A stretch of 64,000 nt of DNA from Paracyclopina nana (Eukaryota > Arthropoda > Copepoda > Cyclopoida > Cyclopettidae), in assembly GCA_019096065.1 (NCBI GenBank), contig JAGUCH010000003.1, positions 4,960,001-5,024,000 of the forward strand, in the 5' to 3' direction. The translations under genes were made by a program, and so were the position numbers. The notes under the pieces are model-generated. The model had not been told where the DNA came from. It ran no database searches and was given only the letters and a program-made list of their open reading frames with translations. Positions 7,046 to 24,860 of the stretch are shown here, piece after piece. Each line of letters opens with the position of its first letter. Within the stretch, counting starts at the first letter, position 1.

Positions 7046-7051
7046 TTTATT
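7046..7051 (-). terminator. AATAAA polyadenylation signal of the PDZ gene
   Basis: AATAAA on the minus strand, 66 bp after the PDZ stop codon and about a dozen bases upstream of the first ATG of the next gene. No other AATAAA lies between the two genes. Cleavage directed by it would fall inside the 5' part of the downstream gene. Confidence 0.5.
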
Positions 7052-7117: not shown

Positions 7118-8619
7118 TTATTGAATATTGTTGAATGAATAGCTTGCTTTTCTACACCTTCGCTCGGGGCTGAACAAGTCCAAATTCGCCGGCCTTCGAG
7201 CAAGGTTCTCCTCACTGCTGATGGTGCTGCTACTACAGTCGTTCTGCTTGAACACGCACTCAAAGTCATCAATCATGGACTCGATTTCAATGGCAAGGTT
7301 GCCCTCATCCAGCAGCTCCTCAATTTGCACCGAACTATCGGTAGCTTGCGTGTATTGGAAATCCATGATGGATTCCGCTTCAGGCGAAAGCGGAGTCTCC
7401 ACAAAGGGCTCACAAGTATCGACACTCATTTGTCGCAGCACAAAGGGGCTAGAAGAAGAGTTACGCAAGGGGTGGGCCTTTCTGGGCTGCAAAGAGGGGC
7501 TAAACGGTCTGTTGAGAGTTCTTCGGTGGCAAGCCGATCCTCCTGAGGAGCCTCTTCTGGCTCCATCGCCGCCAATCCCGTCCAAGGAGCTTCTGCTGGC
7601 CTGCAAAGATCGAACCATCTCTCTGGCCTCGTAGCGCAATTTCTTGGTCTTGCTGAAGCTCCCCGAGGAGGCCTGGCCATTCAGAAATGTAAGGTTGGGA
7701 TGAGACCTGGAGAAGTCATTGTTGGCCCCTGCTTGAGACATCTGATGCTCCGTCGTGGGGGTTGTGATGGGCGTCTGAGCCCTTGATGCATCTCGGTAAA
7801 ACTTGAGGACCACGCCAATTTCTGGCAGGGACCTAAGGAATGAGATCAGTTCTGAATGTGACATGCCTCCACACTCTTGGCCATTGGCGCTAATTAGCTT
7901 GTCACCGGGTCTGATTCTTCCGTCAGATATCGCGGGCTCTTTCACCAAAGCCTTGACCGAATGCCTGCAATCATAGCACTACATGGAAAAAATTGTGTTA
8001 TAGATTGGTTCAAAAAAACTTACCTGAGAGCTGTGGTGTCGAGAGGGTCACTGTGAAGGCTGAATCCGAGGCTCCCATTGATTTTATTGAGGTGCACCAA
8101 GAACTCTCCATAGTTGTTGTTGATCACTTCCATATCCTGGTCTTCTTCATCGCAGATCGACAACGGCTTACAGCTGGCTGGACTGAAGCTGTACGACCTT
8201 ATGCGCTTGTTGGTATTCACAACTGCGGGCTGGCTGCTCCCTACGTCGTTTAAAGGCCGACAAACGAACAAGGTTGTCAAGGGAGGACTGGACCGCAAGA
8301 TATCCAGAGCTTGACGCAGACTCAGACCAGTCAAAGGATGACCAGCCGCACTGATGAGAATGTCTCCTTCCTGAAATTGTCCAGACTCCCAAGCTGGTTG
8401 AGAGGGAAAAATCTTTTTGACTCGTATTAGATTTGTGAATGGCTCTGGGGCGTCAGGACCACCAGTAATTGAGAGACCCAGGCCCAGGCTGTTTCGCTTC
8501 AGAATCACTTCAAAGGTGTCCCCTTCGATAAAATTGTCATTTAGGGTCACTACACTTCTGGGCTGAGGCTGCAATGGTAACGACTGAGTCATTTCAAGAG
8601 AATTTCTGTTGGACACCAT
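7118..8619 (-). CDS. Two-PDZ-domain protein, second cistron after GSKIP
   Basis: Two exons, 8619-8024 and 7964-7118, give 480 residues. PDZ1 lies near residues 33-122 (TFEVILKRNSLGLGLSITGG, then EGDILISAAGHPLTGLS). PDZ2 lies near 170-260 and spans the intron (GEFLVHLNKINGSLGFSL, then RIRPGDKLISANGQE). The carboxylate-binding loops are LGLS and LGFS. The rest is Ser/Pro-rich and disordered. The arrangement recalls the PDZ arrays of PTPN13/FRMPD2-type scaffolds, but no FERM or phosphatase domain is present, so I give no symbol. The ATG has a strong context (GCCATGG) and lies 7 nt after the GSKIP stop in a different frame, with an in-frame stop 18 nt upstream. It is therefore a separate ORF, probably on the same mRNA. 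Confidence 0.85.
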
Positions 8620-8626
8620 GGCGTTT

Positions 8627-9083
8627 TCAGTTCTGGCTCAATTTGCGCAGTTGGTTGGCTAGACTTGTGCCAAATGCATGTCGGTAACCCGGGCTAATCT
8701 TATCAAGGAGACTGTACGGAGTTTCAAAGTAGTTGCTTTCATCTACTTCGGTGGCAGTTTCAGGCACTAAATTATGCCCATCCTTGCTCACCACCAAAAA
8801 TCCCTGGCAGCTCAACTCCACCGTCAGCTTTAAATCCTCCACTGTGGTAATATTCAGATACACGGAGTTGTCTGAGTTCTGAATAATGAAATGAAAGTCA
8901 CTAATCATTGCAACAAATGGTAAAATTCAGTTTAGTAACCTCGAGAGCATCAGCAATTTGAATGAGCTTCACGTGGTCTTTGACGTCGTTGATGACAGCT
9001 TCTGCTTCCTCACGCCATCCCTTAGAATTGGCCAAGAAAATTTCGCCGTTGTCTGGGGAAGTTGAAGACGTTGACGTAGCCAT
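8627..9083 (-). CDS. GSKIP: GSK3-beta interaction protein
   Basis: Two exons, 9083-8940 and 8878-8627, give 131 residues (human about 139). GSKIP binds and inhibits GSK3-beta and, in vertebrates, anchors PKA. The GSKIP domain is plain: REEAEAVINDVKDHV near residues 24-38, VYLNITTVEDLKLTVEL near 54-70, and the C-terminal PYSLLDKISPGYRHAFGTSL that corresponds to the GSK3-binding helix. The start was chosen because it is the only ATG before the conserved helix. Downstream, after 7 nt, comes the PDZ ORF within the same uninterrupted genomic exon; no poly(A) signal or promoter fits between them. Confidence 0.88.
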
Positions 9084-9286
9084 GTTTGCTTTCCTAGGAG
9101 AAATACAAGACTGGATTCAAAGACGATGTTATCAGCAGAAAAGCAGCTCGCTGCGTTCTCTGTTCACGTACTTTTGCCCCGAAGCACTCACTCTGTGGCA
9201 GCGAAAACAGGAGTATTTCTCCTATGTGCATGATTTGCAATAAAAGAATTACGCATCAGTTAAGTTAATCTGATTGTTGGCATAAG

Positions 9287-9653
9287 GGGCCTGGTCATTT
9301 AGTGTGTTCAAATTTTTTTTAGATTGATGTTTTTGGAGTGTCATGAAAAAGGTAACTTCGTGACGCAAAGAATAGTGTCAAGGAGTGACAAACAGATGAC
9401 CATGTAACTAGCAACCAAAACAAACTTAACCAGATGACTTGATGAATTTTTCTACATTTTTTACCAAAAAGAGCCCAACTTTGCTTTGTAAAACTTTCTG
9501 TTTACACTGGTAACTCATGAATCAAAACAAACTTTTTTCTTCGTGTTTGTCTGAGTTGTGCTGTGTTGCAAAGTGACAAATTTTGGTAACTTCACTGCAC
9601 AATGTGTCAAGTTTTGCTCACATAGGGACAAAAAGCCTCAGATGACCAGGCCC
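9287..9653. mobile_element. 367-bp MITE, copy A (3-bp target duplication AAG)
   Basis: Bounded by the terminal inverted repeat GGGCCTGGTCAT and flanked by AAG on both sides (9284-9286 and 9654-9656). A copy of identical length and near-identical sequence lies in opposite orientation at 9871-10237. It has no coding capacity. The 3-bp duplication with GGGCC ends is most like PIF/Harbinger-derived MITEs, which usually duplicate TWA; the superfamily is an inference. Confidence 0.8.
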
Positions 9654-9870: not shown

Positions 9871-10237
9871 GGGCCTGGTCATCTGAGGCTTTTTGTCCCT
9901 ATGTGAGGAAAACTTGACACATTGTGCAGTGAAGTTACCAAAATTTGTCACTTTGCAACACAGCACAACTCAGACAAACACAAAGAAAAAAGTTTGTTTT
10001 GATTCATGAGTTACCAGTGTAAACAGAAAGTTATACAAAGCAAAGTTGGGCTCTTTTTGGTAAAAAATGTAGAAAAATTCATCAAGTCATCTGGTTAAGT
10101 TTGTTTTGGTTGCTAGTTACATGGTCATCTGTTTGTCACTCCTTGACACTATTCTTTGAGTCACGAAGTTACCTTTTTCATGACACACCAAAAACATCAA
10201 TCTAAAAAAATTTTGAACACACTAAATGACCAGGCCC
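9871..10237. mobile_element. 367-bp MITE, copy B, inverted relative to copy A
   Basis: Same terminal repeats and same 367-bp length as copy A but reverse-complemented. It is flanked by TAA on both sides (9868-9870 and 10238-10240), so it inserted independently. Only scattered differences separate the copies, so both are young. With the 217-bp spacer the pair could fold into a long hairpin. Confidence 0.8.

Positions 10238-21653: not shown

Positions 21654-24860
<3,207 letters not shown>

Follow-up and report, generated by a model that had tools for sequence, protein, structure and literature searches.

The genes encoding a GSKIP protein and a two-PDZ-domain protein of the copepod Paracyclopina nana follow each other on the minus strand of the 64,000-nt stretch of contig JAGUCH010000003.1 analysed here (the window), and are best read, with a probability of about 0.55, as the two cistrons of a single dicistronic transcription unit from which the PDZ protein would be produced by reinitiation. 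That the two ORFs share one mRNA is, taken by itself, a probable reading of the sequence. The evidence is at the sequence level, and comprises the two ORFs, their frames and spacing, the introns and the protein families.

The first gene specifies a GSKIP of 131 amino acids in two coding exons. Exon 1 (8940..9083) starts at the ATG at 9083, in the context AAACATGG, and is separated by a 61-nt intron (8879..8939; GT..CAG) from exon 2 (8627..8878), which ends with a TGA stop codon at 8629-8627. Support for the intron comes from the alignment of the joined protein with human GSKIP (PDB 1sgo), which shows no gap where the two exons meet. Exon 2 forms the first part of an 855-nt exon (8878-8024) that contains the end of GSKIP and the start of the PDZ ORF, the two being separated by the 7-nt spacer AAACGCC (8620..8626). 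The second gene, which specifies a protein of 480 amino acids, also has two coding exons: exon 1 (8024..8619), starting at the ATG at 8619, and exon 2 (7118..7964), which includes the second PDZ domain (residues 175-246) and ends with a TAA stop codon at 7120-7118. The intron between them is 59 nt long (7965..8023) and is bounded by GTAAGT and GCAG. The original prediction placed the GSKIP stop and the PDZ ATG 7 nt apart, in different frames and within one unbroken exon, and its coordinates were right. The strong context that it attributed to the PDZ ATG (GCCATGG) and the in-frame stop upstream of it were likewise borne out, the latter being a TGA 21 nt before the ATG. Since this TGA precedes the PDZ start, which is shifted to frame +1 with respect to GSKIP, a fusion protein could be ruled out, as had been claimed. 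A chance ORF was ruled out as well, by the Pfam domains present in both proteins and by the short GT-AG introns.

Too short for UTRs, the spacer can hold neither a poly(A) signal nor a normal splice acceptor, which makes a shared mRNA the economical reading; as no 3′-end fits into it, the GSKIP mRNA must run on into the PDZ ORF. This part of what was first proposed stood, but an AATAAA located inside PDZ exon 1 (8083..8088) had been overlooked. This possible premature poly(A) signal may provide a way to a GSKIP-only mRNA, which could uncouple the two genes, or may be a chance product of the codons present there. The candidate poly(A) signal for the whole unit is an AATAAA at 7046..7051, downstream of both ORFs. 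At the opposite end, a candidate 5′ UTR intron of 98 nt (9094..9191), bounded by GTGAGT and TTTCTCCTAG, was picked by eye; it ends 10 nt before the GSKIP ATG. Under the dicistronic reading, one promoter upstream of position 9083 would give rise to a pre-mRNA carrying both ORFs, from which two or three short introns would be removed, the AATAAA at 7051 serving as its poly(A) signal. Translation of GSKIP would begin at the first AUG, and a fraction of the post-termination 40S subunits, retained near the GSKIP stop codon, would restart at the PDZ AUG 7 nt further on. Given the strong context of this AUG, and that no other is as near to the stop, output of the PDZ protein would be lower, and coupled to that of GSKIP.

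Other features were observed around the two genes. The next ORF on the minus strand (7034-6651), the N-terminus of which resembles a signal peptide and which gave no Pfam match at E 0.001, has its first ATG ∼12 nt past the AATAAA of the PDZ gene, so that the 3′-end of the latter would coincide in part with the promoter or 5′ UTR of this ORF. Just upstream of GSKIP, a 367-nt element occurs twice, in opposite orientations and with nearly the same sequence (9287-9653 and 9871-10237; alignment score 355), the whole possibly being a palindromic mobile element. Elsewhere in the window, three consecutive tRNA genes on the minus strand (22840-23637) have the same covariance score. Cuticle-like and degenerin-like ORFs, recognised by eye, point to an arthropod.

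The GSKIP domain (PF05303, GSKIP_dom; E = 1.4e-30) covers residues 24-128 of 131, nearly the whole protein, which corresponds to the simple type that invertebrates keep according to the accessible part of PMC8775565. Compared by sequence with solved structures, the protein had human C14orf129/GSKIP (PDB 1sgo; E = 4.1e-13) as its best and sole match. When SPGYRHAFGTSLANQL is aligned with human SPAYREAFGNALLQRL, Y118, F122, L126 and L130 are seen to be kept, and R129 is replaced by Q. The motif for GSK3 binding, as given in the text available from the same source (PMC8775565), is SPxY...F122...L126...L130, and the copepod protein retains SPGY, F, L and L at these positions in the alignment to the human one. 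The residues by which vertebrate GSKIP, as an AKAP, binds PKA RII, V41 and L45 according to the portion of PMC6832502 at hand, are not kept in the copepod protein, the aligned residues being I and K. Since the residues for GSK3 binding are present and L45 is absent, this GSKIP should, as judged from its sequence, bind GSK3 without anchoring PKA, which matches what has been stated for invertebrates. The PDZ protein gave Pfam matches to PDZ (2.7e-15) and PDZ_6 (2.5e-10), its best match by sequence to a solved structure being the PDZ3 domain of PTPN13 (6gbd; 8.3e-18). No close paralogue of it was found in the genome, where, besides its own two exons, the best of six matches scored 35.2 bits. The 92-Mb genome contains two matches to the GSKIP domain; the other one (31 bits; contig C7) is part of a longer frame, probably that of the CLU protein. 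Using GSKIP as a query, nothing was found in sets of prokaryote genomes and viral contigs, which contain no arthropods.

The occurrence of similarly tight pairs was analysed in two ways. A de novo coding-score scan considering ORFs of at least 60 codons covered both strands of 264 kb (the whole window and 200 kb from contig C1). GSKIP-PDZ was the only candidate with ORFs within 20 nt that was judged, by eye and with a weak score, to correspond to two real genes; inspected in the same way, the 200 kb of contig C1 contained no convincing tight pair. The other tight candidates of the scan looked by eye like overlapping, antisense or mobile-element frames, or like exons split by an intron. As a positive control, the known dicistronic pair MOCS2A-MOCS2B was sought, and was found in the genome with its ORFs 6 nt apart (Pfam ThiS and MoaE) and in the same two-ORF layout. 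The second analysis used a sample of 26 genes, mostly encoding small proteins, made up of every reported match of the families Tim10/DDP (6), LSM (17), Snapin_Pallidin (2) and CHCH (1), and the cut-off for ORFs was 40, 25, 50 or 15 codons in different searches; second genes with a very short first exon could be missed at these cut-offs. In five of the 26, a Pfam-supported second ORF was present on the same strand 1-21 nt past the stop codon (Tim 2/6, LSM 2/17, Snapin_Pallidin 1/2, CHCH 0/1).

Names below family level in these five pairs are identities that we assume. A spacer of 1 nt separates a pallidin-like gene from the WWOX-like one downstream (Pfam WW and adh_short; locus L012, contig C2 of genome G000 near 14256009, stop ending at 1830, ATG at 1832), and one of 2 nt separates a TIM10B-like gene from a class I PI3K p110 gene (PI3K_p85B, 3.2e-31; L038, C2 near 7253976, stop ending at 1722, ATG at 1725). 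The first exon of the latter, of ∼20 codons and followed by an intron, was noticed by eye, and the Pfam match was obtained on two joined exons. A 4-codon uORF precedes the TIM10B AUG at this locus. A TIM9-like and a TIM22-like gene are 16 nt apart (L035, C7 near 3390244; ORF ending at 1746, ORF starting at 1763), the second one matching the Tim17 family at 1.7e-26 with two exons joined, whereas its first exon by itself gave 1.2e-6, which is below the cut-off. The two remaining pairs are formed by NAA38-like and DNL zinc-finger protein genes, 19 nt apart (Pfam 4.4e-27; L052, C4 near 4327894), and by LSM2-like and DIM1 genes, 21 nt apart (Pfam 8.6e-67; L047, C8 near 4872791). We assume that the TIM9 and TIM22-like families belong to the same mitochondrial import pathway, and that LSM2 and DIM1 are both splicing factors; no partnership is obvious for pallidin-WWOX, TIM10B-PI3K p110 or NAA38-DNL. 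In this genome, close spacing joins partners in some cases and not obviously in others, and the earlier suggestion that a kinase regulator and a scaffold encoded together may work together found no support beyond the adjacency of their genes. GSKIP ends in LSQN, which is presumably no classical PDZ ligand.

Proteasome genes were used for comparison. Ten of 20 matches were taken, all with a matched C-terminal part, and no convincing second ORF was found after any of these ten genes, although the difference between 5/26 and 0/10 is not telling at such small sample sizes. Several ORFs close to a stop codon were not counted. Those in the family sample were a 53-codon ORF 0 nt after an LSM6-like gene (L040; score -0.17, though with a possible donor), ORFs of 32 and 31 codons after an SmE-like gene (L049; -4 and -1 nt; short), one of 42 codons located 20 nt after the gene at L055 (score -0.24), and one of 215 codons located 5 nt after LSM1 (L051), which is antisense to a gene that we take to encode a ribosomal S12/S23-type protein. 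Those in the proteasome set were ORFs of 45 and 50 codons after the gene at L066 (5 and 12 nt; negative scores) and a short one of 20 codons after that at L064; a 27-codon ORF after the gene at L059 was read as the gene's own final exon. At the LSM6-like locus (C3 near 10363506), the stop codon abuts the ATG of the 53-codon ORF (TAAATG), the possible donor being GTAAAA, and the ORF found 169 nt after the LSM6-like stop is presumably TP53RK-like. The ORF that follows the snapin-like gene, at 134 nt, is TTC7-like, so that a snapin-methyltransferase pair was not seen in this genome.

As to how the second ORF would be read, reinitiation is slightly favoured over a separate PDZ mRNA, the odds being about even. 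No internal in-frame Met is present among 130 residues of GSKIP. In two Drosophila dicistrons, translation of the second cistron was reportedly tied, to judge by the title of a 2005 study by Wall, to a first cistron free of in-frame AUGs. A Met-free GSKIP would be expected by chance in ∼6% of cases at an assumed Met content of 2.2%, which makes this weak evidence, and Met codons are present in other first ORFs of the tight pairs (TIM9, pallidin). The termination-reinitiation motif TGGGA was not found upstream of the PDZ AUG. This AUG is the closest to the GSKIP stop codon in either direction, the nearest upstream one beginning 50 nt before the stop, and post-termination 40S subunits can shift a short distance both ways and then reinitiate (accessible text of PMC11892635). 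In general, the shorter a uORF, the more efficient the reinitiation after it (PMC2276209, in the part available), and the 131 codons of GSKIP, long for such a mechanism, count against it.

Of the mechanisms named in the original prediction, reinitiation came out slightly preferred and an internal promoter proved to be a real rival, while leaky scanning fitted poorly. It is possible, if less than probable, that the PDZ protein is translated from an mRNA of its own, arising either from a promoter within GSKIP (in the intron or exon 2) or from the skipping of GSKIP exon 1, which, like the AATAAA at 8088, had not been considered before. In the skipping variant, the 5′ UTR donor at 9192/9191 would be joined to GSKIP exon 2, so that the 154-nt exon 1 and the GSKIP AUG are skipped. 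This would be mechanically simple, since good candidates for a donor (GTGAGT) and an acceptor (TTTCTCCTAG) flank the candidate 5′ UTR intron, and would leave before the PDZ AUG only the short uORFs of exon 2, of 4 and 27 codons, the longer of which encloses another of 6 codons, all closed by 8661. An internal promoter could make use of an Inr-like TCATTT at 8894, in the GSKIP intron, but Inr matches are merely generic and no TATA(A/T)A occurs on the minus strand from 9300 to 6900. Moreover, an mRNA specific for the PDZ protein would on its own leave unexplained why no more than 7 nt separate the stop from the start, and the GSKIP mRNA would run into the PDZ ORF anyway. Leaky scanning, by which some scanning complexes would miss the first AUG and initiate at that of the PDZ ORF, is improbable. 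It would profit from the lack of an internal in-frame AUG in GSKIP and from the fact that the ORFs opened by the five out-of-frame AUGs all close before the PDZ AUG at 8619; against it, the GSKIP AUG lies in a strong context (AACATGG, with A at -3 and G at +4) and these five further AUGs intervene. They are not depleted: 4.7 were expected from synonymous shuffles (P of five or fewer = 0.74), so that selection against such AUGs in GSKIP was not evident. The green-algal bicistronic loci at which this mechanism operates share with GSKIP-PDZ a short inter-ORF distance and the presence of unrelated ORFs on one mRNA but, in the accessible text of PMC11892635, differ in having weak contexts at ORF 1 and fewer AUGs upstream of ORF 2. 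A purine is found at -3 of the second AUG in all seven tight pairs (the five described above, MOCS2B and PDZ), and also in four of the five first AUGs that were read (GSKIP, TIM9, TIM10B and pallidin; C in MOCS2A), so that leaky scanning is no obvious general explanation for such pairs.

Less probable still is spliced-leader trans-splicing, which would split a polycistronic pre-mRNA into separate mRNAs, as occurs in the operons of nematodes and tunicates, where genes are likewise arranged in tight tandem, often in pairs. Tight tandem pairs do recur in this genome, and some copepods use spliced leaders (PMC4664967, available text). A passable acceptor precedes MOCS2B and the DNL protein, two of the seven second ORFs of tight pairs: an AG that follows 11/14 pyrimidines lies 16-19 nt ahead of their ATG. 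However, the two leader patterns covered by the search, those of calanoid and siphonostomatoid copepods, were absent from the 92-Mb genome when up to 3 mismatches were allowed. The AGs located 13 and 17 nt before the PDZ ATG have weak tracts (6/14 pyrimidines), there is no AG closer than 35 nt before the PI3K ATG, and a trans-splice acceptor at such a site would cut into the coding end of the first gene. In addition, operons were unreported in copepods or amphipods as of 2021, according to the accessible part of PMC7986045.

A shared mRNA would place GSKIP-PDZ among dicistronic genes of the kind already described in Drosophila. FlyBase lists 159 dicistronic pairs, 2.5% of protein genes having a polycistronic transcript; small proteins are over-represented in these pairs and, at loci making only polycistronic transcripts, the distance from stop to start ranges from -34 to 319 nt (PMC4528330, in the text available). 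The 7-nt spacing of GSKIP-PDZ, with two ORFs in one exon, is inside this range. Hayden and Bosco (PMC2276209, accessible part) described 44 conserved Drosophila uORFs, among which zf-Tim10 genes are over-represented, with Tim9b as a first and Tim10 as a second cistron, and a snapin-methyltransferase pair conserved from Drosophila to Daphnia. Like GSKIP-PDZ, the Drosophila dicistronic genes (FlyBase; snapin-CG9960, Tim9b-CG12788, stoned A-B) have unrelated ORFs in different frames, a short distance between stop and start and a small first protein; GSKIP-PDZ itself is known here from the genome sequence. The MOCS2A-MOCS2B pair, alike in layout and spacing, differs in that its products are subunits of one enzyme and its pairing is conserved across distant eukaryotes (PMC2276209, text at hand). 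The terms PDZ, GSK and DUF727 do not occur in the main text of PMC2276209, no GSKIP-PDZ entry was recognised among those CG numbers of its tables 1-2 that could be resolved, and no account of a GSKIP-PDZ pair was found in the accessible text of the literature on dicistronic and bicistronic genes, including that on Daphnia. The best reading of the sequence is that GSKIP-PDZ would be an ordinary arthropod dicistronic gene of a known kind, the pair itself being new.

Should the two ORFs indeed share an mRNA, the dosage of GSKIP would be coupled to that of a two-PDZ scaffold, and the locus would provide a clean natural test of how animal ribosomes gain access to an ORF that begins 7 nt after another of 131 codons, a length after which reinitiation should, by the textbook, be poor. 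The wider recurrence of tight pairs matters more than GSKIP-PDZ alone. It may be proposed, tentatively and as a rather unlikely extension, that tight dicistrons are a regular expression route for small proteins in this organism, GSKIP-PDZ among them, maybe coupling GSK3 regulation to a scaffold. Were this so, about one fifth of small-protein genes would have a second ORF 1-21 nt behind them, the pairs TIM9/TIM22-like, LSM2/DIM1 and MOCS2A/MOCS2B would be operon-like, and second cistrons as important as DIM1 and PI3K p110 would need efficient reinitiation near the stop codon. Gene predictors may fuse or drop ORFs spaced so tightly. Recurrent pairs 1-21 nt apart, three of them joining partners, would make this compact arthropod genome an operon-like study case without a known spliced leader.
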